DNA of 64,000 nucleotides from Leucobacter sp. PH1c (GTDB lineage: Bacteria; Actinomycetota; Actinomycetes; Actinomycetales; Microbacteriaceae). Below the pieces are notes generated by a model. The model ran no database searches, had not been told where the DNA came from, and was given only the letters and a program-made list of their open reading frames with translations. Both the position numbers and the translations under genes were made by a program. Within the stretch, counting starts at the first letter, position 1; each line of letters starts with the position of its first letter. The stretch spans positions 62,001 to 126,000 of the forward strand of contig NZ_AYMV01000020.1 in assembly GCF_000633415.1 (NCBI RefSeq), given 5' to 3'. Below are positions 1-17,551 of the stretch, piece after piece.

Positions 1-104
1 CCGCTCGCCCCGAGGCAGATCGTGAGGATCACGGCGGCGAATGCGCCGCCGCGCGCGACCCGCTGGACGCGGGCGCGACCCGCCCCGCTCGCTGCGGCGC
101 TCAC
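1..104 (-). CDS. Partial ORF, N-terminus of a probable membrane protein
   Basis: A GTG at 104 overlaps the heme oxygenase stop codon in the four-base arrangement GTGA and opens a frame that stays open to the left edge. The 34 visible residues are a small basic N-terminus followed by an alanine-rich hydrophobic stretch, like a signal anchor or first membrane segment. The overlap suggests translational coupling with heme oxygenase, so the product is probably part of the iron/heme operon. Too little is visible to name a family. The gene call rests on the overlap and the reading frame alone. Confidence 0.45.
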   Translation of the reverse strand, partial: MSAAASGAGRARVQRVARGGAFAAVILTICLGAS

Positions 105-823
105 GCCGCAGCCTCGGAGTACTCGGCGAAGCGATCCTCGAGGTCCTGCCCGGCGACGCCGTTCAGCCAGTACGCGGAGGCTACCTCGCGCAGCACGACG
201 CGCTCCTCGTCGGCCGAGAAGCCGGCGCCGTCGACGAGCGCACGGTACCCCTCCTTGTACGCGGCGGGATCCGGGATCTCCGCGAAGGAGTAGAACGTCG
301 AGCCGAGGTCGCCGTCCGTGGCGTAGCTGTCGCGGAACATGCGCGCGATCATCTGCCCGCCTGACAGATCGGCGAGGTAGCGCGTGTAGTGGTGCGCGAC
401 GAAGTGCGGGAGGGAGTCTCCCGCGACCTCGGCGATGCGAGCGGCGTAGCTCATGATGCCGGTGGTCGCGAAGCGGTCGTACACCTGGTTCTGCCAGTCG
501 GCGCCGAGCCAGTGCTCGAGGTCCGCGGCGAGGGAGGGCAGACGGTGAAGCTCGGGGAGCCAGAACGCGAAGTCGTCACCGAGACGCGCGCGCTGCGCGG
601 CCGCAGCCCGTTCGAGCGCCTCGTACATGAGGTAGTGCTGGGCGGCCTGGGCGGCGATGCCGTCGCGGGTGAGCCCACCGCGGAGGAACGCGATCGCGAA
701 GCGCGGCTCGCTCTCGCCCTCGATGTGGCCGATGCGGGAGAGCGCGCGGAGTCGGACGGAGAGGGGCTGCCCCTCCGTCTCGGAGATCACGGCGTCGACG
801 GGGCTGTCCACGAGCTGGTTCAT
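101..823 (-). CDS. hmuO: Heme oxygenase (biliverdin-producing)
   Basis: This 240-residue cytoplasmic enzyme should open the heme ring with O2 and electrons to give biliverdin, CO and Fe2+, releasing iron from imported heme. The proximal-ligand helix is visible with His33 in the context RIGHIEGESE, and the distal helix has the family signature DLSGGQ. Length fits bacterial HmuO/HemO enzymes. The start is preceded by a purine-rich GAAGAGAAG. It is the last complete gene of the minus-strand heme operon, 83 bp after the giant HtaA-like gene, with a hairpin (869-899) between them that could lower its expression relative to the surface proteins. It is followed directly by an overlapping partial ORF. 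The assignment is firm; the exact regiospecificity cannot be read from sequence. Confidence 0.93.
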   Translation of the reverse strand: MNQLVDSPVDAVISETEGQPLSVRLRALSRIGHIEGESEPRFAIAFLRGGLTRDGIAAQAAQHYLMYEALERAAAAQRARLGDDFAFWLPELHRLPSLAADLEHWLGADWQNQVYDRFATTGIMSYAARIAEVAGDSLPHFVAHHYTRYLADLSGGQMIARMFRDSYATDGDLGSTFYSFAEIPDPAAYKEGYRALVDGAGFSADEERVVLREVASAYWLNGVAGQDLEDRFAEYSEAAA

Positions 824-868
824 GGGTGCTCTTCTCTTCGGGCCCCGAGCGGGGCGTGTGGTCCGTGC

Positions 869-899
869 GGGGTGGGGCGCCGGTGCGGCGCCCCACCCC
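869..899 (-). terminator. Perfect 13-bp hairpin between the HtaA-like gene and hmuO
   Basis: GGGGTGGGGCGCC (869-881) pairs exactly with 887-899 across a 5-nt loop, just downstream of the surface-protein stop codon at 907. No T-run follows on the minus strand, so it may be an mRNA-stabilising or attenuating stem rather than a full terminator. A smaller stem, GCCCC-GAGC-GGGGC, lies at 842-855. Confidence 0.6.
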
Positions 900-906
900 T
901 GGGGTG

Positions 907-3900
907 TTACTCGGCGTGCGCGGATCGACGTCGGCGGACGACGAGCGTCGCCCCCGCAGCGATCAGCAGCACGGCGCCGGCGGTCGCCGCGAAGGGCAGC
1001 GCCGCACCGGTGGTGGCGAGCCCGTTCGCGGGCTTCGCGCCGGGCTGGACGGAGCCGCCGACGGTCTCCGTCCCCGTTCCGGGCGTCGTGCCCGGGCCGT
1101 CCGTACCGGGCTCGGTTCCGGGCTCGGTTCCGGGCTCGGTTCCGGGCTCGGTTCCGGGCTCGGTCGGGGTGCGCTCGGTCACCGTGAGCGCGACCGGCTC
1201 GGTGACGACGGGGTCGCCCACGCCGTTCGAGACGACGACGCGCACCTCGGTGCCGCTCTGCGCGAGCGAGACCTGTGCGAGCACGAAGCTCGCACCAGTC
1301 GCGCCCGGCACGTCGACCCAGCCGTCGGCGGCGTCAGCGGGTGCCGCGAGCAGCGCTGCGCGCTGCGCGGCACCGTCCTGCGCGGTGACCTGCTCCGGCA
1401 CGGCCGCGACGGGCACGCGCGTCTGCCACTGGAAGGTGGGCTCGGGCGTACCGCTCGCGGTGACGGTGAAGGTCGCGTCCGCGCCCTCGACCACGCGCTG
1501 AGCGGTCGGCGCCGCGTCCACCTGGGCGGCGCGCTTCGCGCGCACCTCGACCTCGACCGGCTCGGACTCGGCGGAGCCGAGCTCGTTCGTGGCGACGGCG
1601 CGGTAGCTGCCGGAGGCGGCGGGGTGCGCGGCGGGAATGGTGAGCGTCGCACCGGTCTGGCCGGGGATCGCGGTCCACTCGCCGTCGACGAGTCGCTGCC
1701 ACTGGAGCGCGGGCGCGGGATCGCCGGCGGCGGCGGCGTTCAGCACGACGTCCTCGCCCTCGATCACGCGGGATCCGGCGCCCACCTCGACGGTGGGGGC
1801 GACGCCCGAGACGAAGCTGACGCCGATCGGGGCGCCCGCCTTCGTGCTGTCGGACGAGCTGCCCGACTGCAGGAAGTACGCGCGGACGTTGCTGTTCACG
1901 AAACGCAGGAACTGGTTCGTGAGCGTCGCCCCCGTGTACGTGCCGTTCCAGGTGCCCGCGGCGACCTGGCCCTCGAAGAGCGGCGCGACGGCGAACTCCG
2001 TCGCGGCCCCCGAGGTGCTCGGCTGCGCGCCGCGGAAGGTCTGCACGACCACCCGCTCGGGACCGTAGGGCTCGTCCACGCCGTCGAAGGCGCTGCCGAA
2101 CCACATGCCGTCCACGGTCGCCGTGAGGTATCCGTCGCCCGCAGCGTTCATCACGAGCTGCGGATCGCGGAAGTTCCACTGCGGCAGCGTGCCCGAGGTG
2201 AGACGCACCGAGCCGGTGAAGTCGATGACGCGGTTGCCCGCGGCATCCTCGTGGCCCGTGCCGTTCGAGAACACGAACGCGCGGTTCGCGCGATCGGTCG
2301 CGCTCGGCTGCTCGGGCAGCGGCGCGAGCTCGACGTCGCCCTCGAGCACCTCCTTGCCCGGGCCCGAGCCGAAGCTCACGTAGTTCGCGACCGACCAGCG
2401 CAGCTCGGCGCCGGCGATCGTGCGGGCGGTCTCGCCCACCGCGATCTCGTCGACGGCGGGAGCGAGGTCTACGATGCGGAAGGTCCGCGCCGCCGAGGTC
2501 GAGGGCGTGAACGCCGCATCGTCAGCGGGCGTGAAGCTCGCCGTGATGCTGCGCGCGCCGCCTGCGAGCGCACGGGTGGTGAGCTCGGCCGCGCCATCGG
2601 CGACGGTCGCGGTCCCGAGGGAGGCACCGTCGGCGAAGAACTCGACCGTGCCCGCAGCCGCGGGGGTCACCGCGGCGCGGAGCCCGACGTCCTCACCGGC
2701 GAAGTGCACGGGGAGCGATGCCGTCGGCTGGGCGTCGACCGCGATCGCAGTCTCGGTCGCGGGGATCGCGGCCGAGACGTAGCTCACGCCGATCGGCGCG
2801 CCCGCCTTCGTGCTGTCGGACGAGCTGCCCGACTGCACGAAGTAGGAGCGCACGTTCGTGTTCACGAAGCGCAGGAACTGGTTCGTGAGCGTGGTGCCCG
2901 TGTAGGCGCCGTTCCACGTGCCCGCGGCGACCTGGCCCTCGAAGAGCGGCGCGACCGAGAAGCCGGTCACTCCGTCGGTCTCGACGGGCTCGGCGCCGAC
3001 GAACGTCTGCACGACGATGCGCTCGGGGCCGTAGGGCTCGTCCTCGCCGTCGAAGGCGCTGCCGAACCACATGCCGTCCACGGTCGCGGTGAGGTAGCCG
3101 TTGCCCGCGGCGTTCATCACGAGCTGCGGATCGCGGAAGTTCCACTGTGGCAGCGAGCCCGAGGTGAGGCGCACCGCACCGTCGAAGTCGATGACGCGGT
3201 TGCCCGCGGCATCCTCGCGGCCCGTGCCGTTCGAGAACACGAACGCGCGCTTGGCACGCTCGATAGCCGTGGCCGCGTCGTCGACGGGGGCGAGCTCGAC
3301 GTCGCCCTCGAGCACCTCCTTGCCGGGACCGGAGCCGAAGCTCACGTAGTTCGCGACCGACCAGCGCAGCTCGGCGCCGGAGATCTCACGGGCCGTGTCG
3401 CCCACCGCGATCTCGCTCACCGCGGGGGCGAGGTCGACGATCCGGAAGACGCGAGCGCCCGAGATGGACGGTGCGAACTCGGCGGCGTCCGCGGGCGTGA
3501 AGCCCGCGGTGATGCTGCGCGCGCCGCCCGCGAGGGTCTGCGTCACGAGCTCCGCGGCGCCGTCGGTGACGGTGGCGGAGCCGAGCGAGGCGCCATCGGC
3601 GAAGAACTCGATCGTTCCCGCGGCCGCGGGAACGACGGTCGCGCGCAGCGCGACGTCCTCACCGGCGAAGTGGCGCGGGTAGTCGGCCGCGGGCTGCGCG
3701 TCAACGGCCGTCACGGTCGCGGTCGCCGCGGCGACGGTCACCGTCAGCGTGGCGACCGAGGAGGTCGCAGTGCCCGCGGTGTTCGTCGCGACGAGCCGGA
3801 AGCGGTCGCCGCTCTGTGCGGCCGTGGCGTCGGCGACCGTGAGGGTTGCGGAGGTCGCGCCGGCGATGTCGGCGAAGTCCTCGCTGCCCGCCGCGGCGCG

Positions 3901-5460
3901 CTGCCACTGGAGCTCGGGCTCGGGGGTCCCCGAGACCGTGGCCGTGAAGCGCGCCTCAGCGCCCTCGTCGACCGTCACGCTCTCCGGCTGCCCGGCGAAC
4001 ACGGGCGCGATGCCCGCGGTCTGCTCGGCGAACTGCACCGGGGTGAACACCTCGACGCCGCCCGAGCGCTGGCCGTGCGCGCCAATCGTCATGAAGCCGC
4101 ACTGCGTGCCCTCGGCGAGGCAGTCGATCGTGCGTCCCGCCTGCGAGGTGAACTTCGCCCCGGGGATCGCGTGCTCCGTCAGCGTCCAGTTGCCGTCGGC
4201 GTCCATGAACGGCATGCCGGGCTCGGTGGTGCTGCCCGGGTAGTTCACCATGAGCTGGTACACCCCGGCCTCGCCGGCGTAGTCGTAGTTCACACCGCTC
4301 ACGCCGCGCTTCGTCGGCGCCCAGCTGCCCGGGTCCGTCGCGTCCTTCAGCGTGATCGCACCGAAGAGCGTGTACGCGCCGCCGAAGCTCGCGCCGGCGT
4401 CCGAGGTGGTCGCGTAGTTCTTGCCCGTGAGGGTGACCGTCTGCGAGCCGTCGGCCGCGAGGCCCTGGCCCGGGGTCACCGTGAGGCTCGGCTGCGGCTG
4501 CCCGGCGGCCTGGTTGACGCCGTAGCCGGTCGTCGCACCGGGAGTGCCCGGCGTGCCGGGGTTCTCGCCGCCGGAGTCCGCCGTGACCGTGAGCGCAGCC
4601 GCGGAGGAGGTCGCCTCGCCCGCGGAGTTCGTCACGACCGCGCGGAAGCGCGCGCCCGAGTCCGCGACCGCGGTCTCGGCGATGACGAGGGTCGAGTCGG
4701 TCGCGTCCGCGATGTCGGCGAAGGCGTCGGAGCCGGCGGCTGCGCGCTGCCACTGCACGGTCGGCGCGGGCGTGCCGCTCGCGGTGACCGAGAAGCGGGC
4801 CTCCGCACCGGCCGTCACGGCGACGTCCGTGGGCTGCGCCGTGATGGCGGGGGCGACCGTCGCGACGGGCTCGGCGAAGCCGATCCCGACGTAGGCCTCG
4901 CTGCCGGCGTTCACACGGCCGTGCGCGCCGAAGGAGAAGAAGCCGCAGCCGTTGCCCGCAAGGCAGTCGACGGTGCCGCCGAAGAAGCTCGGGAACTGCG
5001 AGCCGGGCACGGAGACGGACATCGTCCAGTTCCCCGAGGCGTCCATCTCGGAGTCCGCGACGTCGCCGTCGGCCGAGCCGTTCGCCACGACGAGGCGGGG
5101 CACGCCGTAGACGTAGTCGCCGTCGTGGCCGCTGAGGCCGCCCTGGCTGCGACGCCACTGCTCGGGCGTCTCGGGCGAGAGGTTCTCCCCCAGGCCGACG
5201 TAGATCGGCTTCGTGGGGTCGTAGTTGAAGCCGCGCACCGTGACGGTGCTCGCACCGCTCGGGTCGAGCTCGGTGCCGGGCGTCACGGTCATGTAGGCCG
5301 AGGTGTCCGAGTACGGGGTGCCGGTGACGGGCTCGCCGGGCGCTGCGAGCGCCGGCGTCACGCCGAAGCTCGACAGCACCAGTGCGGCGGTCGCGCTGAG
5401 CACGACTCCCGTGGCGCCGGCGCGCCGAGAGCCCGGGGCTCTCATCCGCGTGTCTCTCAT
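907..5460 (-). CDS. Giant HtaA-like, LAxTG-anchored surface protein
   Basis: The 1517-residue product has a signal peptide (about 1-39), a first GAHG module (about 45-195), an Ig-like domain, a second GAHG module (about 310-480), another Ig-like domain, two copies of a 322-residue unit made of an Ig-like repeat plus an HtaA-like domain (about 585-906 and 907-1225), two more Ig-like domains, a PGTEPGT linker, the sorting motif LATTG (1481-1485), one membrane helix and an RRRR tail. HtaA domains bind heme in corynebacterial HtaA/HtaB. Here the opening pattern ELRWSVANYVSFG and the FRDPQLVM strand resemble HtaA, but the usual GH histidine is replaced by a LTSGSLPQW-type segment, so heme binding by the canonical ligand is uncertain. 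The gene is the fourth surface gene of the hmu operon, after a 99-bp gap. The start was chosen at the ATG giving the full signal peptide; a second ATG lies four codons on. Confidence 0.85.
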   Translation of the reverse strand: MRDTRMRAPGSRRAGATGVVLSATAALVLSSFGVTPALAAPGEPVTGTPYSDTSAYMTVTPGTELDPSGASTVTVRGFNYDPTKPIYVGLGENLSPETPEQWRRSQGGLSGHDGDYVYGVPRLVVANGSADGDVADSEMDASGNWTMSVSVPGSQFPSFFGGTVDCLAGNGCGFFSFGAHGRVNAGSEAYVGIGFAEPVATVAPAITAQPTDVAVTAGAEARFSVTASGTPAPTVQWQRAAAGSDAFADIADATDSTLVIAETAVADSGARFRAVVTNSAGEATSSAAALTVTADSGGENPGTPGTPGATTGYGVNQAAGQPQPSLTVTPGQGLAADGSQTVTLTGKNYATTSDAGASFGGAYTLFGAITLKDATDPGSWAPTKRGVSGVNYDYAGEAGVYQLMVNYPGSTTEPGMPFMDADGNWTLTEHAIPGAKFTSQAGRTIDCLAEGTQCGFMTIGAHGQRSGGVEVFTPVQFAEQTAGIAPVFAGQPESVTVDEGAEARFTATVSGTPEPELQWQRAAAGSEDFADIAGATSATLTVADATAAQSGDRFRLVATNTAGTATSSVATLTVTVAAATATVTAVDAQPAADYPRHFAGEDVALRATVVPAAAGTIEFFADGASLGSATVTDGAAELVTQTLAGGARSITAGFTPADAAEFAPSISGARVFRIVDLAPAVSEIAVGDTAREISGAELRWSVANYVSFGSGPGKEVLEGDVELAPVDDAATAIERAKRAFVFSNGTGREDAAGNRVIDFDGAVRLTSGSLPQWNFRDPQLVMNAAGNGYLTATVDGMWFGSAFDGEDEPYGPERIVVQTFVGAEPVETDGVTGFSVAPLFEGQVAAGTWNGAYTGTTLTNQFLRFVNTNVRSYFVQSGSSSDSTKAGAPIGVSYVSAAIPATETAIAVDAQPTASLPVHFAGEDVGLRAAVTPAAAGTVEFFADGASLGTATVADGAAELTTRALAGGARSITASFTPADDAAFTPSTSAARTFRIVDLAPAVDEIAVGETARTIAGAELRWSVANYVSFGSGPGKEVLEGDVELAPLPEQPSATDRANRAFVFSNGTGHEDAAGNRVIDFTGSVRLTSGTLPQWNFRDPQLVMNAAGDGYLTATVDGMWFGSAFDGVDEPYGPERVVVQTFRGAQPSTSGAATEFAVAPLFEGQVAAGTWNGTYTGATLTNQFLRFVNSNVRAYFLQSGSSSDSTKAGAPIGVSFVSGVAPTVEVGAGSRVIEGEDVVLNAAAAGDPAPALQWQRLVDGEWTAIPGQTGATLTIPAAHPAASGSYRAVATNELGSAESEPVEVEVRAKRAAQVDAAPTAQRVVEGADATFTVTASGTPEPTFQWQTRVPVAAVPEQVTAQDGAAQRAALLAAPADAADGWVDVPGATGASFVLAQVSLAQSGTEVRVVVSNGVGDPVVTEPVALTVTERTPTEPGTEPGTEPGTEPGTEPGTDGPGTTPGTGTETVGGSVQPGAKPANGLATTGAALPFAATAGAVLLIAAGATLVVRRRRSAHAE
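1106..1165 (-). repeat. Five 12-bp tandem repeats encoding the PGTE linker
   Basis: CCGGGCTCGGTT and near-identical units repeat five times on the plus strand, encoding PGTE repeats in the wall-spanning linker of the giant surface protein. Because 12 is a multiple of 3, slippage would change linker length without breaking the frame. Confidence 0.85.
1777..3708 (-). repeat. Tandem 966-bp intragenic duplication (Ig plus HtaA-like unit)
   Basis: Positions 2743-3708 and 1777-2742 encode two adjacent copies of the same 322-residue unit, beginning with a VDAQP stretch. Long DNA segments are nearly identical, for example around 2346-2420 and 3300-3380, which points to a recent duplication or ongoing gene conversion. 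The second copy ends near 1790, where a different Ig-like domain begins. Confidence 0.85.
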
Positions 5461-5536
5461 GGTGTGGTGTTCCTCTCCGTGGGTGGTGGCGCGTGGCGCC
5501 GGATCAGGGGTCGGGGTGCGTTCCCGGCCCGGAGGC

Positions 5537-5556
5537 GGTCCCGGGGCTCCGGGACC
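5537..5556 (-). terminator. Hairpin after the second surface gene
   Basis: GGTCCCGG (5537-5544) pairs with CCGGGACC (5549-5556) across GGCT, immediately downstream of the stop codon at 5560. There is no T-run. It probably attenuates or processes the message before the giant surface gene. Confidence 0.5.
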
Positions 5557-5559
5557 GAG

Positions 5560-7161
5560 CTAGATGCGCGACGGTCCGTCGCCGCGGCGGGTGCGCAGGA
5601 GGAGCGCGCCGCCGAACAGGCCGATGCTCAGCAGCAGCACGCCGCCGATCAGCGCCGTCCGCGCCGTGTCGTCCGCGCCGGTCGCCGCGAGGCCGCCGTT
5701 CACGCCGAGTCCGGCGGCGCGCTGGGCGTTCGCCGCGGGGGCCGGGGTGCCGGTCGCGCGGGGCGGGGTCGGCGTGGCCGTTCCGGGGACGACGGGCGGG
5801 GTGGTGCCCGGTCCGCCCGTTCCGGGGGTGCCGGGTCCGGTAGGCGGCGTGCCCGCGGCGTCCTGCCCGCCGAAGAAGATCGGCACGTAGGCCTCGTTCG
5901 CCGCCGCGACCTTGCCGTGGGCTCCGAACGAGAAGATGCCGCAGTACGCCGTGGCGCAGTCGATCGTGCCGCCGAAGAAGCTCGTGATGTCCTTGCCGGG
6001 AATCGTGACGGTCAGCCGCCAGGTGCCGTCGGCGCCGATCTCCGCGTCGGCGACGTCCGCGTCGGCGGAGCCGTTCGCCACGACGAGACGCGGCACGCCG
6101 TAGTCGTAGTCGGCGTCCGGCCCGCTTTGGCCGCCCGTGCTGCGGCGCCACTCCTCGGGGGCGCCGTGGTTGGCGAGCGCCCCGACGCCGACGTAGATCG
6201 GCTTCGCCGGATCGTACCCCGTGCCCGAGATGACGATCTCGCTCGCGTCGGCGCAGGGCAGGTATCGCCCGGGCGAGACACTCAGCACAGCGGAGGTGCC
6301 GGAGAGCGCGGTGCCCGTCACGGTGCGCTCCGCACCGGCGGGCGCCTCGGTGACGAGGCAGGGGTCGCTCGTTCCCGGCCCCGTACCCGGGTCGGTTCCC
6401 GGATCCGTGCCAGGGTCAGTACCGGGGTCGGTCCCGGGCTCCGTGCCCGGATCGGTGCCGGGGTCGGTCCCGGGCTCCGTCCCCGGGCCGGTTCCGGGAT
6501 CGGGGGTCTGGCCGGCGAAGTACACGGGCGTGAACACCTCGACACCGCCGGAGCGCTGGCCGTGCGCGCCGATCGTCATGAAGCCGCACTGCGTGCCCTC
6601 GGCGAGGCAGTCGATCGGGTGCCCCGCCTGCGAGGTGAACCTCGCGCCCGGGATCGCGTGCTCCGGGAGCGTCCAGTTCCCCGCGGCGTCCATGTAGGGC
6701 ATGCCGGGCTCGGTGGTATTGCCCGGGTAGTTCACCATGAGCTGGTAGAGCCCGGCCTCGCCGGCGTAGTCGTAGTGCGTGCCGCTCACGCCGCGCTTCG
6801 TCGGCGCCCAGCTGCCGGGATCGCCCGGATCCTTCAGCGTGATCGCACCGAAGAGCGTGTAGGCGCCGCCCACCGTCCCGCCGGAGCCGGAGGTCGTGGC
6901 GTAGTGCTCGCCCGTGAGGCTCACCGTGCTCGGGGCATCGGGATCGAGGTCGACCGCGGGGGTCACCGTGAGCCGCGGCTGGGGCTGCCCGGCCTTCTGG
7001 TTCACGCCGAGCCCGGAGGAGGATCCGCTCGGCGCGACGGGCGCGGCCGAGGCGATCCCGGCGCCGCCGGCGGTCAGGATCCCCGCGAGCACGATCCCGG
7101 CGGCGGCCCGGAGCGCGGTCCGGGCGCCGGGCCGGGGCGGAGTGAGGAGTGACGTCGTCAT
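5560..7161 (-). CDS. Secreted LAxTG-anchored protein with two GAHG modules
   Basis: The 533-residue product has an N-terminal signal peptide ending near residue 40 (ASAAP), a GAHG module (type YTLFGAITLKD, about 50-215), a PGTDPGT linker, a second GAHG module (type YDPAKPIYVGVG, about 290-430), a proline/threonine linker, the sorting motif LAATG (491-495), a membrane helix and a short basic tail. Each module has a Cys pair followed by GAHG. There is no HtaA domain. The same two module types occur in reverse order in the giant neighbour. The start ATG at 7161 overlaps the TGA of the upstream gene (ATGA), which fixes it. No enzymatic motif is visible; a role in heme or hemoprotein capture is inferred from the operon only. 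Confidence 0.85.
   Translation of the reverse strand: MTTSLLTPPRPGARTALRAAAGIVLAGILTAGGAGIASAAPVAPSGSSSGLGVNQKAGQPQPRLTVTPAVDLDPDAPSTVSLTGEHYATTSGSGGTVGGAYTLFGAITLKDPGDPGSWAPTKRGVSGTHYDYAGEAGLYQLMVNYPGNTTEPGMPYMDAAGNWTLPEHAIPGARFTSQAGHPIDCLAEGTQCGFMTIGAHGQRSGGVEVFTPVYFAGQTPDPGTGPGTEPGTDPGTDPGTEPGTDPGTDPGTDPGTDPGTGPGTSDPCLVTEAPAGAERTVTGTALSGTSAVLSVSPGRYLPCADASEIVISGTGYDPAKPIYVGVGALANHGAPEEWRRSTGGQSGPDADYDYGVPRLVVANGSADADVADAEIGADGTWRLTVTIPGKDITSFFGGTIDCATAYCGIFSFGAHGKVAAANEAYVPIFFGGQDAAGTPPTGPGTPGTGGPGTTPPVVPGTATPTPPRATGTPAPAANAQRAAGLGVNGGLAATGADDTARTALIGGVLLLSIGLFGGALLLRTRRGDGPSRI
6372..6500 (-). repeat. Tandem PGTDPGT-coding repeats
   Basis: About ten imperfect 12-bp units encode alternating PGTD/PGTE/PGTG tetrapeptides that join the two GAHG modules. 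The units are more diverged than those at 1106-1165. Confidence 0.8.
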
Positions 7162-8738
7162 GCGGAGGCTCCGTTCTGAGCGGGTGCGGGCCGCGCGGCG
7201 GCGCGGCGTGAGGTGCGGAAGATGAGGGCGCCGCCGAGCGCGCCCGCGCTGAGCAGGAGCGCGCCGCCGAAGAGGGCGAGCCGTGCGAGTTCGGGATCCC
7301 CCGCTGCGAGCAGCCCGCCGTTCACGCCGAGTCCGCCGCCGGCGCCACCGCCAGCGGGGACGGCGTTCGGGTTCGCGCTCACGGGTGCGGTTGCGGGGAG
7401 CTCGGGCTTCGCGCCGCCCGTCTCCTCGGCGGTGTCCGTGAAGTACACGGGTACGAAGATCTCGCCCTGCGCGTTCGTCTTCCCGTGAGCACCGATCAGG
7501 AGCACACCGCACTGCATCGTGTAGCAGTCGACGTCCATGCCCTGCTGGCTCTCGAAGCGCGATGCGAGGATCGGCAGTTCCATCTCGAAGGAGCCGTCCG
7601 CGGCGAGCGTGGGGAAGCCGGGGACGGTCGTGTTGCCCGGGTAGCTCACCATGCTCTGGTAGGTGCCCTGCGGCTCGATGTCCTGCGAGTAGGTGAAGGT
7701 GCGTCCCGAGACGCCACCGCTTCCCGGGCCCCAGTTGGCCCCCGCGGCGGGATCGACCCAGCCGAAGAGCACGTAGAGGCCGCCGAAGTTCGTGCCATCG
7801 GCACCGAGCGTCGGGAACCCGGTGCCGCGGAGCGTGACCCGCTGGTCCCGGTCGCCCAGCCCGTAGGCGGGGCTCACCGTGAGCTCGGCGCCGAACGCGT
7901 TCCGCGCGGAGTTGCTCCCGTGCGGGGCGCCCGTGCCGCCGGCGCCGGGGCCGACCGGGGTGGGCTTCGGCGTGGGGCCCGGATCGGTTCCGGGCTCGGT
8001 GCCCGGCCCGGGCGTTCCCGGCTCGGGGTCCGGGGTGCCGGGCTGCGCGACGGTCAGGGCGAGCGCGAAGGGATCCGTGTAGGCGTTGTCGCCGCCGTAG
8101 GTCGCCTGCCCGTCCATCCGGGGCAGGTGATTCGCGCCGATCTCCTCGGGGAAGGCGCCCTCACCGCTCGTGATCTCCGCCGCGCCGTCGACGACGCGCA
8201 CGGGGTCGCTGCCCTCGAGCGGGAAGGTGGCGAGCACGAGGTCGTCGGTGCGGCCCGGAGTGCCGAAGCTCTCGCGCATGTCGACCGTGAGCGTCGCCAC
8301 GCCACCTGCGATGTCGAGGCGGAGCGCTTCGAAGTGCAGCCAGGCCTGGGAGAAGCCGTGCATGTGGAGTCGCCCGGAGAAGCTCAGGCTCGCGGTATCC
8401 GTCGCCGCATCGACCCATCCGGAGGCCACGGGGAACGCGGCGGCCGGCTGGCCCTTCCGGTAGCGCGCGCCATCATAGGCGGCGACGTAGCCCTCGGTGT
8501 GACCGAAGTTCTCGAGGTAGTTGCGGATCGAGGTGCGCACGCCCCACTCGAGTTCGCCACCCGTGACCGCAGTCGCTCCGGCCGGGATGCTCTGGGCCGG
8601 GGCGTCCGTCACCGCGGTCGGCTTCGGCGCGGCGGCGTCGAGCGCGGAGGCCGCGCTCGCGGGCGCGAAGAGCGCCAGCGGGGCGAGGAGCGCCGTCGCG
8701 ATGCCGAGCGCGAGCCGCGCGGGTGCGCCGCGGCTCAT
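7158..8738 (-). CDS. htaA: HtaA-domain heme-binding membrane protein with one GAHG module
   Basis: The 526-residue protein starts with a signal peptide (about 1-30), then a well-formed HtaA domain (about 58-230) opening with GGELEWGVRTSIRNYL and containing the FSGRLHMHGF segment, where the conserved histidine region lies. A PGTDPGP linker follows, then one GAHG module (about 285-430), and a C-terminal LLAAG (476-480), membrane helix and basic tail. LLAAG sits where its neighbours have LATTG/LAATG, but the threonine cleaved by sortase is alanine, so the protein probably stays in the membrane. HtaA is known to bind heme and pass it to HmuT in corynebacteria. The ATG at 8738 overlaps the upstream stop (ATGA), and the next gene overlaps in the same way. 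Confidence 0.88.
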   Translation of the reverse strand: MSRGAPARLALGIATALLAPLALFAPASAASALDAAAPKPTAVTDAPAQSIPAGATAVTGGELEWGVRTSIRNYLENFGHTEGYVAAYDGARYRKGQPAAAFPVASGWVDAATDTASLSFSGRLHMHGFSQAWLHFEALRLDIAGGVATLTVDMRESFGTPGRTDDLVLATFPLEGSDPVRVVDGAAEITSGEGAFPEEIGANHLPRMDGQATYGGDNAYTDPFALALTVAQPGTPDPEPGTPGPGTEPGTDPGPTPKPTPVGPGAGGTGAPHGSNSARNAFGAELTVSPAYGLGDRDQRVTLRGTGFPTLGADGTNFGGLYVLFGWVDPAAGANWGPGSGGVSGRTFTYSQDIEPQGTYQSMVSYPGNTTVPGFPTLAADGSFEMELPILASRFESQQGMDVDCYTMQCGVLLIGAHGKTNAQGEIFVPVYFTDTAEETGGAKPELPATAPVSANPNAVPAGGGAGGGLGVNGGLLAAGDPELARLALFGGALLLSAGALGGALIFRTSRRAAARPAPAQNGASA

Positions 8739-9769
8739 CGCTCGGCCCCCGCGCGGAGTGCGGCGCTCGCGCCGCCCGTGATGGTGCCCTCGGCCGGTGC
8801 CGGAGCGGCTCCGCGCCGCGCGCGGCCCCGCTTCACCGCGACGAGCACGATCGCGACGCCGAGCGCGAGCACCGCCGCGCCGAGCACCCCGATCACGGCC
8901 CAGGTGAGCGCCGAGTTCTCGGCTTCGGCCGGGGCGGCCGCCGTGGCGGCGTCCGCTGCGCGGACCTCCCCCTCGGCGGGAGCGGCTGCGGCGGTCTCCC
9001 CCGCCTCGGCCGCACCGGGGACCTCGATCCGCGTCGCGGCGTCGTTCGTTCCCGCTGCCCCGGTTCCGGCGGATCCGCCGCCCCCGAAATCGCTCATGGT
9101 GCCCGAGCCGGCCTGCAGCTGGCCATCGGCTGCGGCGAAGCTCACGGGGGTGAAGGACTCGTTGTTCGCGTTGATGAGGCCGTGCGCGCCGATCGTGATG
9201 ATGCCGCACTGCACCTGGAGGCAGTCGATCTCCTGGCCGGCGCCCTGCGCCCCCTCGTGCGGGTTCCCGAAGCTCGCCGTGAACTTCGAACCCGGGATCG
9301 TCATCTGGGTGCTCCACGCACCGTTCGCGTCGATCTGCCCGTTCGCCTCGCTCGCGGAGCTGCCGCCCTGGAATGCGACAAGGAGGCGGGATCCGTCGGT
9401 GCCCGCGTACGCGAAACTCTCCCCCGAGCGGCCGCCCTGGCTCGGTGCCCAGGCGTTCGTCGTCGGGTCCGCGACCGCGCCGAAGAACACGTAAACGCCG
9501 CCTGGCGCGTTCGGCTGGTACTGGAATCCGCTGCCGCTGAGCGTCACGGTGGTCGGCCCGTCCGCTGCGGGCGCCGGGGCGACGTCCACGCGGGAGGCCG
9601 CCTGCGCCGGGGCCGTGCCGAGCGCCAGCGGAGCGACCGCGAGGAACGGCAGGAGCAGCGCCGCGGCGAGGCGGCGGCCCGGCCGCGACCGTGGCGCTCG
9701 GGGCACCGCGGCGCTCGGGGCTCCGGCGCGGGAGGGCACGGCGCCGTGCGGGGATGGGAGCGCGGTCAT
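8735..9769 (-). CDS. Membrane-anchored protein with a single GAHG module
   Basis: The 344-residue product is the smallest of the four surface proteins. It has a twin-arginine-containing basic N-terminus and signal sequence ending near residue 57 (AQAAS), one GAHG module (about 60-215) with a Cys pair (DCLQVQC) before TIGAHG, an Ala/Glu-rich extracellular stalk (about 245-290), one membrane helix (about 293-315) and an arginine/lysine-rich cytoplasmic tail. There is no sorting signal. It overlaps hmuV by four bases upstream (ATGA) and the HtaA gene downstream, so its output is tied to the transporter. It is a natural candidate for the membrane-side partner that hands cargo to HmuT; that role is inference. 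Confidence 0.85.
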   Translation of the reverse strand: MTALPSPHGAVPSRAGAPSAAVPRAPRSRPGRRLAAALLLPFLAVAPLALGTAPAQAASRVDVAPAPAADGPTTVTLSGSGFQYQPNAPGGVYVFFGAVADPTTNAWAPSQGGRSGESFAYAGTDGSRLLVAFQGGSSASEANGQIDANGAWSTQMTIPGSKFTASFGNPHEGAQGAGQEIDCLQVQCGIITIGAHGLINANNESFTPVSFAAADGQLQAGSGTMSDFGGGGSAGTGAAGTNDAATRIEVPGAAEAGETAAAAPAEGEVRAADAATAAAPAEAENSALTWAVIGVLGAAVLALGVAIVLVAVKRGRARRGAAPAPAEGTITGGASAALRAGAER

Positions 9770-10647
9770 GGAGTGGTCCTCTCACTGGATCGGGGGTCGT
9801 GCGCCGCGGGCGGCGCGGCGTCGTCGTCGGGGAATCGGACGGGGGTGATCGCGAGCGCACCGTCGGCGTCTCGCGCCACCCGCACCGGGTGGCGATACAC
9901 CTCGCTCAGCAGCTCGGGGGTGAGCACCTCAGCGGGTGCGCCCCACGCGCGCATGGCGCCGTCGGCGAGGAGCAGCACCCGGTCGCTGTAGGCCGCGGCG
10001 GCCGCGAGGTCGTGGAGCACGACCACGACCGCGCTCCCCTGCCGCGCCGTGCGCCGCGCGATGGCGAGCACCTGCTCCTGATAGTTGATGTCGAGCGCCG
10101 CGGTCGGCTCGTCGAGGAGGAGGAGCCCCGTGCGCTGCGTCATCGCGCGAGCGAGCGCGACCCGGGCGCGCTCGCCGCCCGACAGGGAGGTGTAGGTGCG
10201 CTCGGCGAAGCGGAACGTGTCCGAGCGGAGGAGCTCCTCCGCGATGATCCGGTCGTCCTCCTCGACGGAGGTGATCGCGCGCCAGGGCGCGCGCCCCATC
10301 TTCACGATGTCGACCACCGGGAACGGGAAGCTCACGGAGTTGTTCTGCCGGAGCACGGCGCGGCGGAGCGCGAGCTCGCGGCTCGGCCAGTCGTGCACCT
10401 CGCGCCCGACGAGCTCGACGGACCCGCCGTAGGCGTGATCCCCCGCGAGCGCGCCGAGGAGCGTCGATTTCCCTGCACCGTTCGGGCCGAGGATCGCGAG
10501 TACCTCGCCGGCGCGCACGTCGAAGTCGACGCCGGAGACGATCCGGGTTCCGCCGAGGGTCACCGACACCCCCGCGGCGCGGAGCACGATCTCACCGCGC
10601 GGAACCGGGGCGGGCAGCCGCGGGGCGCGGCGGGACAGGGGGCTCAC
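9766..10647 (-). CDS. hmuV: Heme ABC transporter ATP-binding protein
   Basis: The 293-residue protein is a canonical importer ATPase: Walker A GPNGAGKST (54-62), a Q-loop (RQNNS), signature LSGGERARVALARAM, Walker B LLLLDEP and the switch histidine in VVLHDLA. It should power heme uptake through HmuU. The frame is open upstream through the permease gene, but the GTG at 10647 forms a GTGA overlap with the hmuU stop and gives a normal length, so that start was chosen. The final 20 or so residues (aspartate/alanine rich) extend past the usual end. Confidence 0.93.
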   Translation of the reverse strand: MSPLSRRAPRLPAPVPRGEIVLRAAGVSVTLGGTRIVSGVDFDVRAGEVLAILGPNGAGKSTLLGALAGDHAYGGSVELVGREVHDWPSRELALRRAVLRQNNSVSFPFPVVDIVKMGRAPWRAITSVEEDDRIIAEELLRSDTFRFAERTYTSLSGGERARVALARAMTQRTGLLLLDEPTAALDINYQEQVLAIARRTARQGSAVVVVLHDLAAAAAYSDRVLLLADGAMRAWGAPAEVLTPELLSEVYRHPVRVARDADGALAITPVRFPDDDAAPPAAHDPRSSERTTP

Positions 10648-11762
10648 AGCCAGCCTCCGTTCTTCCGCGAGGTCGCGCGGATGAGGAAGAAGAAGAACGG
10701 TCCGCCGATGATCGCGGTGAGCATGCCGAGCGGCAGCTCCGCGTAGGGCACGGCCGTTCGGGCGAAGGTGTCCGCGACGACGAGCAGGAGCGCACCGCCG
10801 AGGGCGCTCGCCGGGATGAGCACGCGGTGCCCCGGTCCGACGATCATGCGGATGACGTGGGGCACGACGAGCCCGACGAAGCCGATGATGCCGGCGAACG
10901 CCACGGCCGCAGCGGTGAGCACTGAGACGATCATGATCGCGCCGATGCGCAACCGCTCGATGTTGAGGCCAAGGTGCCTGGCCGCGTCGTCGCCGAGGCT
11001 CAGCAGGTCGAGCTTGCCCGCGATCCCGAGCGCAAGGGCGAGGCCCAGGAGGACGAGCGGGAGCACCGTCGCGACCTGCGGCCAGAGCGAGCCGGCGAGG
11101 CTGCCCATCTGCCAGAACACGATCTGCTCGCGCTGGTTCATGTCGGCCGCGAAGGTCATGAGGGCGAGGGCCGCGCCGCCGAAGGCGTTGACGGCGACGC
11201 CGACGAGGATCAGGGTGATCACCCGCGTCTTCCCGCCGGAGCGGGAGATCGAGTAGATGAGGAGCGAGGTGGCCACGCCCGTGACGAAGGCGCCGACGGG
11301 GATCGCGAGGCTCGAGCCCGCGGCGAGTCCCGTGACGATCATGAGGCTCGCGCCGACGGCTGCGCCCGAGGAGACGCCGATGATGCCGGGATCGGCGAGC
11401 GGGTTGCCGAACACGCCCTGCATGATCGCGCCGGAGGACGAGAGCGCCATGCCGACGAGGACGGCGAGCGCGACGCGCGGGAAGCGCACCTCCCACAGTG
11501 CGGCGTCCGCGTTCGGGTGCGCGGCCTCAGCGCCGCAGGCGAGCCCCGCCTTGCGGCAGAGCGAGCCGATCACCTCGACCACGGGGATCTGCATCTGCCC
11601 GAGCGCGGCCGCGAGGAGCGTGGCGACGACGAGGCCGATCCCGAGCACGAGGAAGAGCAGGGTGACCCGGCCGCGCTTCGGTCGCGGGAGCGCGGTCTCC
11701 CCGTAGTCGAGCACCCGCGGCAGCTCGGGCAGCGCGACGGGGCCGGTCTCGACGCGGCTCAT
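10644..11762 (-). CDS. hmuU: Heme ABC transporter permease (FecCD family)
   Basis: This 372-residue inner-membrane permease has about ten hydrophobic segments and the FecCD/BtuC family stretch NPLADPGIIGVSSGAA near residues 118-133. A cytoplasmic N-terminus of about 40 residues precedes the first helix. It would dimerise and form the heme channel energised by HmuV, receiving heme from HmuT. ATGA overlap with hmuT and GTGA overlap with hmuV show tight coupling. Substrate is inferred from the HtaA and heme oxygenase genes in the same operon; a siderophore permease would look similar, but that reading fits the context less well. Confidence 0.92.
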   Translation of the reverse strand: MSRVETGPVALPELPRVLDYGETALPRPKRGRVTLLFLVLGIGLVVATLLAAALGQMQIPVVEVIGSLCRKAGLACGAEAAHPNADAALWEVRFPRVALAVLVGMALSSSGAIMQGVFGNPLADPGIIGVSSGAAVGASLMIVTGLAAGSSLAIPVGAFVTGVATSLLIYSISRSGGKTRVITLILVGVAVNAFGGAALALMTFAADMNQREQIVFWQMGSLAGSLWPQVATVLPLVLLGLALALGIAGKLDLLSLGDDAARHLGLNIERLRIGAIMIVSVLTAAAVAFAGIIGFVGLVVPHVIRMIVGPGHRVLIPASALGGALLLVVADTFARTAVPYAELPLGMLTAIIGGPFFFFLIRATSRKNGGWL

Positions 11763-12895
11763 GCGCCCGCCTCCTCGGGGAGCTCGACCGTGTCGAGGTC
11801 GACGTGGTAGATCGCCTCGGCGAGCGCCGTGAGCACGTCGGGCGTGCGGGGACCCCAGGTGAACATCTCGTAGTCGCTCATGTCGACCACGCGGCGCCGC
11901 TCGCCCGCGGGTGTCTGCGCGACGCCCGGGACGGCGAGCAGGCCGTCGATCCCGCCGACCGATTCGAGCCCCAGCGTGAGCATGAGGATCAGATCCGGCT
12001 CGAGATTCATGAGCCCCTCGGCGGTGAGGTTGCCGCTCGTCCAGTTCTCCTGGCCGGCGACGTCGATCGCCCCGAGCTGCTCGATGAGCACGCCCGCGAT
12101 CCCCGTGGACCCGTCGGGGTTGTTGCCGTACATGTAGTACACCCCGGCGCGGCCGCGCATGTAGAGGAAGACGGTGCGCACACGATCCGCCTCGGCGCTC
12201 GGCGCGACCGCCGCGATCCGCGCGATCGTGTCGTCGAGCCGCTGCGTGAAGTCGGCAACGTAGCGCTCGCCGAGCTCGGGCACGCCCAGCGCCCCCGCGA
12301 CGTCGCCGATCAGCCGGGGAATATCATCGATGTCTTTCGCGCCGTCGAAGAACACGACCGGGATCCCGGCGTTGCGCATCTGCAGCTGCACATCGTAGGG
12401 GCCGACGGAGTAGTCCGTGAGGATCAGTGTCGGGTTGAGGTCGAGGATCGACTCGGCGTTGAGCGTGTGGTTGTCCATCACGAGCGGCAGGTGCTTCGCG
12501 GACTCCCACCCGGTGGTGAGGTCGCGGCCCACCACGTTGGGGCCGAAGCCGAGTGCCCAGACCACGGACGCGAGGCTCCCCGTGCCGTCGAGCGCGAGGA
12601 TCCGGCTCGTGTCGGTGATCTCCACGGCGACGTCGTCGAGCCCCGTGAAGGTGACGGGCAGCTCGGGCCGCGGGTCGTCGGTGATGGCCTCGATGTCCGG
12701 GCTGTCGAGCAGCGCGGTCTCGGGGCCCTCCAGGAAGCGGGGGCTCTCGGCCGCTGCGAGCGCGCGGTCCGCGATCTTCGGCGAGTCACCGAAGACGAGG
12801 GCGCAGCCCGCGAGGTTCGCGGCGAGAAGCGCGGCGAGTGCGGCCACGCCAAATCGAAGGGTGCGGGCTGAGCGCCCGCCGTTGACGAAAAACAC
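11759..12895 (-). CDS. hmuT: Heme-binding lipoprotein of the ABC importer
   Basis: The 378-residue product has a signal sequence with lipobox LAGC, placing the lipidated residue at Cys31, and a class III periplasmic-binding (TroA/BtuF-like) body with recognisable segments such as GRDLTTGWES and ILTDYSVGPYDVQL. It is the extracellular heme receptor that docks on HmuU. The GTG start at 12895 lies 7 nt from the -10 hexamer and has no Shine-Dalgarno sequence, so the transcript is probably leaderless and the start is supported by the promoter. It is the first gene of the operon and its promoter is covered by an iron box. Confidence 0.92.
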   Translation of the reverse strand: MFFVNGGRSARTLRFGVAALAALLAANLAGCALVFGDSPKIADRALAAAESPRFLEGPETALLDSPDIEAITDDPRPELPVTFTGLDDVAVEITDTSRILALDGTGSLASVVWALGFGPNVVGRDLTTGWESAKHLPLVMDNHTLNAESILDLNPTLILTDYSVGPYDVQLQMRNAGIPVVFFDGAKDIDDIPRLIGDVAGALGVPELGERYVADFTQRLDDTIARIAAVAPSAEADRVRTVFLYMRGRAGVYYMYGNNPDGSTGIAGVLIEQLGAIDVAGQENWTSGNLTAEGLMNLEPDLILMLTLGLESVGGIDGLLAVPGVAQTPAGERRRVVDMSDYEMFTWGPRTPDVLTALAEAIYHVDLDTVELPEEAGA

Positions 12896-12914
12896 GAAGG
12901 TTAGGCTAACATTA
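12896..12914 (-). promoter_or_regulatory. DtxR/IdeR-type iron box over the hmuT promoter
   Basis: GAAGGTTAGGCTAACATTA, read on the minus strand, matches the DtxR consensus TTAGGTTAGCCTAACCTAA at 15 of 19 positions, including the full central core. It covers the -10 element and the expected transcription start, so Fe-loaded regulator bound here should block the operon. Confidence 0.85.
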
Positions 12915-12932
12915 CTTAGGTCAGATGTTCAA
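12901..12932 (-). promoter_or_regulatory. hmuT promoter, leaderless
   Basis: On the minus strand a TTGAAC -35 element (12932-12927) is followed by an 18-nt spacer and a TAGCCT -10 element (12908-12903). Seven bases separate the -10 element from the GTG start, so transcription should begin at or next to the start codon. Confidence 0.7.
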
Positions 12933-12996: not shown

Positions 12997-15900
12997 GTGC
13001 ACGCGCGTAGATTCCGAGAGCCGATCTTGCCCTTCCTCCCCCGCCTCCGCTTCACCCGCCACCGCCGCCCCCTCGCCGCAGCAGCGGCAGGCGCACTCGC
13101 CGTCGCCGTCGCCCTGAGCGGCGCCGTCGGCTTCGCGCAGTTCGCCCCCGCGGGAAGCCCGAGCGCCGCGGGCACCGCTCCGCTCGGCGCTGACTCCGGA
13201 CCTGCGGAGATCGCGCCCGAGCTCGCGGCGGCGTTCACGGGCGCCGAACGGGACGGCAAGGATCCCGAGGGCACGGATCGGAAGCAGACGGATCCGGAGC
13301 GAACGACTCCCGGCGCCGGAGACGAGGCGGACCGGGACGCTGCCAGTGGGGGCGCTACCGATGGAGACGCTGCCGATCGGGACACTGCGGGCCCGAGCGC
13401 GGACGGCCCCGCGGCGCCCGATGCGAGCGGCGGCCCGGATGCGAGCGGCGACGCCGCCCCGTGGCTCGACCCCGAGACGGGCGCGGCCGAGATCCTGATC
13501 CGCTTCGCCGACGCCGGCATCGAGCCCGGCGCCGAGGGCGATCCCGCCACCGCGGCCGCTTCCCTGCAGCGCGGCGCCGACGCGGCGCTCAGCCTCGCGG
13601 AGCCGGGCCTCGCCGCGCTGGAGGAGCGCGGCGCGATCCGTGTGCTCAATCGGTTCTGGATCGCGGCTGCCGTGCTCGTCTCCGCCGAGCCCACGCCCGA
13701 GACGCTCGCCGCGCTCGCGGCGCTCCCGGGCGCGGAGACCGTCGCCCCGAACGGCGAGGTCACCCCGCTCGACACCCCCGAGGCTCCCGAGCCGGTGGCC
13801 GATCCGAGTGCGCTCTCACGCACCGTCGACGGTGACGGCGTGCCCGTCACCTACGGCCTGGCCGGGATCCACGCGCCCGAGGCCTGGGCGCAGTACGGCG
13901 CAACGGGCCGCGGGGTCCGCGTCGCCGTGCTCGATACGGGCATCGACCCCACGCATCCCGACCTCCGCGACCGCATCGCGACCGTCGACCCGCACGATCC
14001 GCTCTTCCCCGGCGGATGGATCCACCTCGACCGCACGGGAACGGCGCGCGCGAAGCGTCCCGCGGACCCGGCCACCCACGGCACGCACGTCGCGGGCACC
14101 GTGCTCGGCGGCGACGCTTCGGGCACCCGTATCGGCGTTGCCCCCGACGCGGAGCTCATGGCGGTCAACGCGATCAGCGACGGCAGCAGCGACGCGAAGA
14201 TCCTCGCGGCGATCGAGTGGACACTCGCGCCGTACGACGCGAGCGGGGCCCCCGCGGGCCGAGCCGCCGACGTGATCAACATGTCGCTCGGCGTCAGCAA
14301 CTCGTACAACGACTTCCTCCTCGAGGTGCTGCACCGGGTGCGGCAGGCCGGCGTGTTCGCCGCGGTCGCCGTGGGCAACGACGGCGACAAGATGCCGGGC
14401 TGCATCTCGAACCCGAGCTCCTCGGCCGATGTCTTCGCGGTCGGCATGACGAACGCCGAGCGCACGGTCGATCCGCGCTCCTGCGGCGGGACCACGCGGT
14501 GGAGCTCCGGCGTCGCCGAGCGCTTCGGCTGGCCGAGCGGGGAGTTCACGAAGCCCGACGCGTCCGCCCCCGGCGTCGACATCGTCTCCTCCGTGCCGGG
14601 CGGCGGTTGGGGCCGCTCCTCCGGCACCTCGATGGCGACCCCGCACGTCGCCGGCGCGGTCGCGGCGCTGCGCTCGGCGCAGCCCGGCCTCACGGTCGCG
14701 CAGATGGAGGACGCGCTCGAGTCGACCGCCTGGCACCCGAACGGTTCGCCCGCGAGCGGCGACACCCGGTACGGCGCGGGCATCATCGACCTCGCGGCGG
14801 CCGTAGCCGCGGTGCGGGGCGACACCGGGATCACGGTGACAATCACCGACGCGACGAGTGGCGAGCCGCTCCCCGACGTGACCGTCGACTACGGCGAGCG
14901 CGGCGAGACCTGGCTGAGCGACGGGAACGGCCAGGTTCGCGCCTCGCTGCCGGCGGGCGCTTACACGCTCGGCTTCTCGGCGTTCGGCTACGCCGGCGCG
15001 ACGCGCGAGATCGAGGTCTCCGACGCAGGATTCGGTTCCCTCGAGCTCGCGCTCGATCCCCTCACGACGGGCTCGGTCTCGGGCACCGTCGTCTCGGCGG
15101 GATCCGGCGCGCCCCTCCCCGGCGTGCTCGTCTCCCTCGCGGGGGCGGGGCTCAGCGCGACGACCGACGCCTCCGGCGCCTACCGGATCACGGGCGTCCC
15201 CGTGGGCGCGCACCGCTTCCGCGCCGCGCTCGACGCCCACGCGACCGCCACCTCGCCCTCGGCCGAGGTGCTGCCCGTCGCCGACGCCGACACCGTCGTC
15301 GATTTCCGCCTCTCGCCGTTGCCGACCGTGCTCGTGCTCGGCGACCAGACCGGGCGAACGGTCGAGCTGCTGAACGGACAGGATCTCGTGGCCACGGGCA
15401 TGGACGAGCTCCCGGCCGACCCCCGCGCCCTCGGCGCCTACGACGCCGTCGTCTGGGACGACCCCGGCGCCGTCGACGCGCCTCGCCTCACGGCCGCGAT
15501 CCAGGCGGCCGACGCCGCGGGAACCGGCATCGTCTGGCTCGATCTCGGCGCCACCGAGACCTCCGGCATCGCGTCGCTGCAGGCGCGCACGGGCTCCCCG
15601 AAGCAGCGCACGGGCGGCGTCGACGCGACGGCACTCGCCACGGGATACCGGATCTGGGCCGAAGCGGATCACCCGCTGTTCGCCCCCGGCAACATCGCGA
15701 CGGGCGAACTGATTCAGGGCAGCATGGTGCTCCAGGACACCCGCCGCGACGCGGAGAAGTTCGTCTCCTCCTTCGACGGGCTGACGAGCGGAACGGCGCG
15801 CGTCCTCGCGCACACGATCACCCGCGAGCAGGACGGCGCCGAGGTGCGGGTCGACGATCACGGCCCGGGCATCGCGGTCGACGAGCGCGAGGGCGCTCGC

Positions 15901-16785: not shown

Positions 16786-17417
16786 GCGCCCCGGGCCGCC
16801 GGGCCCTCGTGGGCGTCCTCGCCGGAGTGACGGCGCTCGCCGTCGCCGGCGGGGTCGCGCTCGTCGGGCTCGGGGCGTGGCGGCTCGCCGCGCCCCCGGC
16901 GCACGCGACGGCCGAGCGCGTCGCGGTCGAGCACGTGGGCGCCGAGCTCCCCGAGGTGCCGGCCGCTCCCCCGTCCGAGCTCTCGATCCCCGCCATCGGC
17001 TTCGCGGCGCCCGTCGCCCCGCTCGCGATCGGCGCGGCGAGCGTGCTCGACCCGCCGACCGCGGAGGACGTCTTCTGGCTCACCGACTTCGGCGCGCCGG
17101 GCGCCGGGAGCGACAACACGGTGTTCCTCATCGGCCACACCTCCGCCGACGGCCGGGCCGTGTTCGACCCGCTCGTCGACCGGGCGGCGGGAACGACGAC
17201 CGCGCTGCCGGGCGACGAGGTGCTCGTGGAGACGGCGGGCGGCACCGTCGCTTACGAGATCGTCGCGACCGAGCGGCACGACAAGACCGCGCTCGCCGAG
17301 CTCGCGAGCGTGTGGGAGAACGTGCCCGGCCGGCTCGTCATCATCACCTGCCTGTTCCAAGCGGATCGGGATCTCGCCCCCGACAACATCGTGGTGTTCG
17401 CCCGCGCCGTCGCGTAG
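16782..17417 (+). CDS. Sortase (class E/F-like transpeptidase)
   Basis: The 211-residue product has one N-terminal membrane helix (about 9-31) and a sortase barrel with catalytic His119 (GHTS), Cys190 (ITCLF) and Arg196. The opening LSIPAIGFAAPV and length fit the class F group of high-GC Gram-positives, though class E cannot be excluded. It should cleave LPxTG/LAxTG-like signals after threonine and attach cargo to peptidoglycan. The GTG start overlaps the protease stop. The only LAxTG cargo in the window are two heme-locus surface proteins, and the thioester adhesin has LSDTG, so these are the nearest candidate substrates. The actual pairing is inferred. Confidence 0.88.
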   Translation: MSAPGRRALVGVLAGVTALAVAGGVALVGLGAWRLAAPPAHATAERVAVEHVGAELPEVPAAPPSELSIPAIGFAAPVAPLAIGAASVLDPPTAEDVFWLTDFGAPGAGSDNTVFLIGHTSADGRAVFDPLVDRAAGTTTALPGDEVLVETAGGTVAYEIVATERHDKTALAELASVWENVPGRLVIITCLFQADRDLAPDNIVVFARAVA

Positions 17418-17509: not shown

Positions 17510-17551
17510 GACGAGCGTCGCATCGGCAGAGTGTTCCGGAAGGGGGCCCGA

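Follow-up and report, generated by a model that had tools for sequence, protein, structure and literature searches.

A module with a modelled neocarzinostatin fold in the surface proteins of a Hmu/Hta-type heme-uptake gene cluster of Leucobacter sp. PH1c

The staphylococcal Isd system, with its NEAT domains, and the hmu system of Corynebacterium diphtheriae and C. glutamicum are the closest described counterparts of the gene cluster considered here, which lies in a stretch of 64,000 nucleotides from Leucobacter sp. PH1c (the window: positions 62001–126000 of contig C20 in a 3.12 Mb genome of 73 contigs; coordinates below count from its first letter). With the Isd system the Leucobacter cluster shares a layering of wall and membrane proteins that feed a heme ABC importer, but the folds are others, and Pfam gave no NEAT domain in the nine Leucobacter proteins scanned. 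In C. diphtheriae, as far as the available part of the source goes, the gene order is htaA, hmuT, hmuU, hmuV, htaB, and the hmu genes show a DtxR- and iron-dependent change (PMC13001254). A second source, again in its available part, describes a Ser and an axial Tyr in the heme-binding helix of the CR domain, an HtaB that is buried in the envelope of C. diphtheriae and an hmuO that has its own locus (PMC12494546). The Leucobacter cluster resembles this system in HmuTUV, a heme oxygenase, a DtxR box and an HtaA CR domain with its axial Tyr, and also in that the gene next to hmuV on its 3' side encodes a membrane-tethered protein. It differs in that hmuO belongs to the same cluster, that two-module and Ig-rich sortase-type proteins are added and that, whereas HtaB contains a CR domain, the Leucobacter protein encoded after hmuV has a modelled neocarzinostatin fold and no HtaA match.

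All genes of the cluster lie on the minus strand. The first, hmuT (11759–12895; GTG start, 378 aa), encodes a heme-binding lipoprotein that matches PF01497 (Peripla_BP_2), hmuU (10644–11762; 372 aa) a permease of the FecCD family (PF01032, 304 bits) and hmuV (9766–10647; 293 aa) an ATPase that matches Pfam ABC_tran and the NCBIfam model for heme ABC transporter ATP-binding proteins (NF010068, 293.8 bits, cut-off 261). They are followed by genes for surface proteins of 344 aa (8735–9769), 526 aa (7158–8738), 533 aa (5560–7161) and 1517 aa (907–5460), and by hmuO (101–823; 240 aa), whose product is a heme oxygenase (PF01126, 124.7 bits). These gene calls agree to the residue with those of the original prediction, which had also described four-nucleotide overlaps from hmuT to the second surface gene; the overlaps are real, but five occur in succession and run on to the third, the gene for the 533-aa protein. 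Gaps of 99 nucleotides separate the 533-aa from the 1517-aa gene and of 83 nucleotides the latter from hmuO.

The best match of HmuT in the Protein Data Bank (PDB) is CgHmuT (5AZ3, E = 5.5e-49), and His143, Tyr245 and Arg247 align with His141, Tyr240 and Arg242 of that protein in our numbering, which is shifted by 23 against the chain as printed; these are the residues that the available text describes as ligating heme or partnering the ligands (PMC4926363). HmuO matches solved heme oxygenases (best E = 4.1e-24), and the 526-aa protein passes the Pfam HtaA model with 57.0 bits (cut-off 24). Judged from its sequence, the cluster is a Hmu/Hta-type system with the heme-site residues of HmuT and a matching HmuUV importer, and the view that it is a heme-capture operon akin to the corynebacterial hmuTUV, hta and hmuO genes is upheld by the HmuT residues, HmuUV, HmuO and the HtaA domain.

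The four surface proteins share a repeated module, as had been claimed for them. Six copies could be aligned, one in the 344-aa protein (9137–9598), one in the 526-aa protein (7440–7889), two in the 533-aa protein (6517–6978 and 5872–6291) and two in the 1517-aa protein (4876–5298 and 4030–4491), with pairwise identities of 28–81%, BLAST E values from about 5e-10 to 1e-95 and 24 invariant columns. In the AlphaFold2 model of the copy from the 344-aa protein (predicted local distance difference test 86.5, predicted template-modelling score 0.84), the module has the neocarzinostatin fold. The search of the surface proteins against Pfam and structure models that had been proposed for this DNA thus yielded HtaA, I-set and Big_3_5 domains and, for the module, this fold. 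At the sequence level, the whole surface proteins gave no match to PF00960 in Pfam at E ≤ 1, where the 344- and 533-aa proteins were without any match at all, and the best single module copy reached E = 0.0041, below the gathering score. PDB sequence searches with the 533-aa protein and with module profiles ranked neocarzinostatin at best at E = 0.59, whereas the fold comparison did find it; the strongest matches in one of these searches, to circumsporozoite protein, were rejected, being due to the low-complexity PGTDPGT repeat. Compared with the PF00960 family (neocarzinostatin, macromomycin, C-1027, actinoxanthin and kedarcidin), the module is about 40 residues longer, has an invariant set of Tyr, Trp and His residues, sits in heme operons and is membrane- or wall-anchored. 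A neocarzinostatin-like wall protein, CwpG, occurs in Actinoplanes, and the available part of its description mentions no heme (PMC13251363). Among the papers listed by searches of PubMed Central (PMC), none connects the neocarzinostatin fold to heme uptake, which is weak evidence of absence because the searches covered open-access PMC only, and a search of plasmids for annotated relatives of the module matched none.

The genomic setting of the module was followed in a collection of species genomes scanned with the single pattern CG[IVF]x[TS][IF]GAHG, from which the best 80 of 214 relatives were kept as named loci; together with 38 further genome stretches they make up 118 loci, in which some genomes are present twice. 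The module is encoded directly 3' of hmuV on the same strand in 108 of the 118, a proportion that describes the module and not all hmuTUV operons, since the loci were picked by the module. The loci without it in this place are L040, L057, L061, L063–L067 and, both at a contig edge, L094 and L132; two more stretches of the Leucobacter genome itself, beyond the 118, also have no module gene after hmuV. The module gene starts in frame with a four-nucleotide overlap of the hmuV stop in 89 of 107 loci. Full hmuTUV sets are found in 73 of the 80 named loci, and six of the other seven start at a contig edge; the hmuV match of L078 is split. By their titles, the best 80 of 214 come from genera that include Leucobacter, Aeromicrobium, Agrococcus, Promicromonospora, Bifidobacterium, Cellulomonas, Schaalia, Lentzea, Brevibacterium, Microbacterium, Actinosynnema, Arthrobacter, Isoptericola, Nocardioides, Mumia, Umezawaea and Herbiconiux.

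In a family sample of 299 genomes the module was found in 71 (E ≤ 1e-3) and HmuT in 118 (E ≤ 1e-20), with HmuT present in 70 of the 71 module-bearing genomes; because no more than 13 candidates were scored in each genome, some may have been missed. Module matches lie within 12 kb of HmuT in 112 of 141 cases, and in 47 of 50 when strong, against a chance co-location of 0.7% per match, a figure that ignores relatedness. In a phylum sample, the six-copy profile matched eight of 396 genomes, including that of the Leucobacter strain. The HtaA domain, HmuTUV, HmuO and the iron box are all of known kind, and the cluster could in principle be nothing more than an HtaA relay of the corynebacterial type without a new component, its modules being the decoration of one strain. 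We consider this very improbable, as the module after hmuV is widespread across many families; four to six modules occur only in nine of the 80 named loci (L069–L077, all Leucobacter-like), two or three in 22 more and one in 49, as counted in the stretches covered, and the co-location, the placement after hmuV and these counts already weaken such a reading. The idea that the module sets this cluster apart therefore holds in one respect, the corynebacterial system not being described with it, and fails in another, the module being widespread and not confined to this cluster. L068, from L. chromiireducens strain LYC-2, has about 93% DNA identity to the source genome.

Among 105 distinct modules from the fourth gene, that after hmuV, the residues Tyr36, Trp50, Tyr64, His139, Asn146, Glu147 and both Cys are invariant. 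This invariance is partly circular because the scan pattern already required Cys131 and GAHG; in 30 distinct sequences collected with a profile and without the pattern, the same residues are all invariant. The six copies of the window keep Tyr36, Trp50, Tyr64, His139, Glu147 and both Cys, but not Asn146. Alignment A2 combines these six with 46 matches from the loci, excluding partial and weak matches and one near-identical copy. A tree of 94 modules from 43 chosen loci, left unrooted, places the fourth-gene copies in a single group of 41 members (support 97/88), among them L040, which is 3 kb from hmuV. The extra Leucobacter copies branch outside this group, which speaks against a recent duplication of the 344-aa gene.

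Given its linkage to hmuTUV, its conservation and its modelled fold, the module is likely a new heme-handling part. On balance we lean towards an Hmu/Hta operon for heme uptake that is repressed by iron, in which the module binds heme and the 344-aa protein hands heme to HmuT. The cleft that holds the chromophore in neocarzinostatin would, in the module itself, bind heme or a different tetrapyrrole via the invariant Tyr and His residues. The 344-aa protein, with one module and a C-terminal hydrophobic helix, matches HtaB in this helix and in its place after hmuV, and it is proposed as an HtaB-like hand-over protein of a different fold, which may be the last surface stop before HmuT, a function of the sort ascribed to CR proteins tethered to the membrane, like HtaB. 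The longer proteins would extend outward across the wall. The 1517-aa protein, with Ig spacers and HbpA/HtaA-fold domains, may capture heme or a hemoprotein, and heme would be handed inward by the 533- and 526-aa proteins.

Several observations weigh against this proposal. GAHG is missing in 14 of 59 full-length profile matches (from genome stretches outside the named set and one stretch of the Leucobacter genome), several of them near HtaA or hmu genes, so that some relatives do without His139. HmuT genomes without a module at E ≤ 1e-3 make up 48 of the 118 in the family sample, which means that HmuTUV can do without the module or that the search missed it. The HmuT His is missing in 14 of 103 operons, replaced by Met in 12 (all Bifidobacterium), Asn in one and Thr in one, and these HmuT proteins may bind heme, or some other substrate, in a different way. 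Ig-like and neocarzinostatin-like domains can, moreover, serve as mere spacers. This last point belongs to the chief rival, which we regard as possible though doubtful: the module would be a non-ligand domain, either a spacer or a docking partner that places HmuT or HmuUV at the membrane, and the HtaA domain and HmuT alone would carry heme. An Ig-like fold, the presence of module copies beside spacer-type I-set and Big_3_5 domains in the 1517-aa protein and a fixed gene place after hmuV, which equally suits a transporter-docking protein, would all fit such a role. However, the module stands alone more often than repeated (one copy in 49 of the 80 named loci), and the unvarying Tyr36, Trp50, Tyr64, His139 and Glu147, in fourth-gene copies and in all six window copies, are more than a spacer should need.

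The ligand of the module could also be a hemoprotein or another small molecule (coproporphyrin, siderophore or corrinoid) instead of heme. By the titles of their PDB entries, proteins of this fold with solved structures carry small chromophores or steroid ligands for which they were engineered, and the available part of one study reports a Leucobacter strain that requires exogenous heme and another on which heme and coproporphyrins were tried (PMC6868719). We hold this to be unlikely, since heme is the ligand indicated by the HmuT site residues, by HmuO and by the HtaA domain alike. Heme auxotrophy as the cause of so large a system is unsupported, because HemB, the one heme-synthesis gene looked for, is present in the genome.

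Should the module handle heme, it would be a further domain for surface heme in Gram-positive bacteria, of a fold other than NEAT and CR/HtaA, spanning bifidobacteria, brevibacteria, cellulomonads, nocardioids and other actinobacteria. A fold familiar from antibiotic carriers, that of neocarzinostatin, would gain a widespread second job, and actinobacterial hmuTUV operons with a module gene in the place of htaB would gain a candidate hand-over protein. Tentatively, the fold may be tetrapyrrole-binding at root, as a surface heme carrier coupled to HmuTUV, with the enediyne carriers as an offshoot and with multiplication in Leucobacter into a wall-spanning chain; we rate this as conceivable rather than probable.

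The iron repression of the operon is predicted from a DtxR/IdeR-type box at 12896–12914 (GAAGGTTAGGCTAACATTA), which abuts the GTG of hmuT and agrees in 15 of 19 positions with TTAGGTTAGSCTAACCTAA, which we take to be the DtxR/IdeR consensus and used for scoring sites. A pattern search at up to three mismatches found no box; the four-mismatch site was found by script, is the best in the window and bears out the predicted iron box ahead of the operon, 20 mononucleotide shuffles reaching at best 13 of 19 (six mismatches). Sites with at most five mismatches lie near the hmuT start in 77 of the 107 loci with enough flank, compared with 13 of 2002 control windows taken within these loci, which were unmatched in base composition. 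Since the GTG comes right behind the box and no obvious ribosome-binding site is visible, the operon may give a leaderless transcript.

The CR domain of the 526-aa protein (8040–8582, minus strand), which precedes its single module, carries the Ser and the axial Tyr in SIRNYL and matches HtaA of C. glutamicum (PDB 6JS9, E = 2.6e-5). Among distinct domains, the window's included, the Tyr is present in 11 of 11 and the Ser in 10 of 11 (Thr in L072); the helper His is not conserved, relatives showing H, Y, F, I or L thereabouts. For the 1517-aa protein Pfam HtaA is absent at E ≤ 1, and Pfam finds four I-set Ig stretches and two Big_3_5 stretches. The label 'HtaA-like', given earlier to its gene, is nevertheless right in that two 225-aa domains, H1517a (2764–3438) and H1517b (1798–2472; 84% identical to H1517a; both minus strand), have the HtaA/HbpA (CR) fold in the models, although it is the 526-aa protein that passes the Pfam HtaA model. 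To the hemoglobin receptor HbpA of C. diphtheriae (9BCH, 9BCJ) they are 18–20% identical, a tie by fold alone, and they differ in being two copies in an Ig-rich wall protein. The model has no helix at the axial Tyr position, which is occupied by Y here and, in relatives, by Y, F, W, M or I; this variability makes a plain heme relay by these domains doubtful.

Wall- and membrane-anchored forms had been predicted for the surface proteins. An LAxTG sorting-like motif with a hydrophobic segment is found in the 1517-aa (LATTG) and 533-aa (LAATG) proteins, and the 344- and 526-aa proteins have a hydrophobic segment only, as assigned by a simple hydropathy window, which is in line with the two forms; the LAVTG model, with a score of 26.1, stays under its cut-off of 27. 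The genome contains at least five sortase matches. Outside the five listed, a sortase-domain gene (16782–17417, plus strand; PF04203, 47.5 bits) lies behind a divergent gene for an S8 serine protease (12997–16785, plus strand; 1262 aa, with carboxypeptidase-regulatory domains) that shares the iron-box region with hmuT. Such a protease also neighbours hmuT in the Leucobacter-like loci L068–L077, L030 and L031. About 5 kb from the hmu promoter is a DtxR-family repressor gene (17531–18265, plus strand; PF02742 97.7 bits, PF01325 33.3 bits), which is among the genome's three PF02742 matches.

The twelve Bifidobacterium loci with Met in HmuT (L079, L081–L083, L085, L086, L090, L092, L095, L108, L115 and L123) retain the Tyr and Arg, and the best iron-box match anywhere in their stretches has at least five mismatches. 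The fourth-gene proteins of Bifidobacterium, Brevibacterium and Schaalia, and of some genomes of the family (L079, L081, L088, L091, L124, L050 and others), share a GYLAAKSLLLGVSP-like stretch ending the membrane helix and have a long basic tail; the one tested, from L088, gave no Pfam match over the cut-off. A call of tRNA-Pro at 7967–8043, inside the 526-aa gene on the opposite strand, was taken as chance. Elsewhere in the Leucobacter genome, a second hmuT with divergent hmuUV lies at the end of contig C16 (L148:8445–11654), with no module match within the stretch covered. The cluster itself extends beyond the left edge of the window, where a fifth surface protein of 545 aa with a divergent HtaA-like domain is encoded 3' of hmuO (L006:9992–11629). 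On contig C35 (L005:29–5057), HtaA genes with three Pfam HtaA matches, one of them partial, adjoin a gene for a 530-aa protein that combines a weak neocarzinostatin-like module with S-layer homology repeats.

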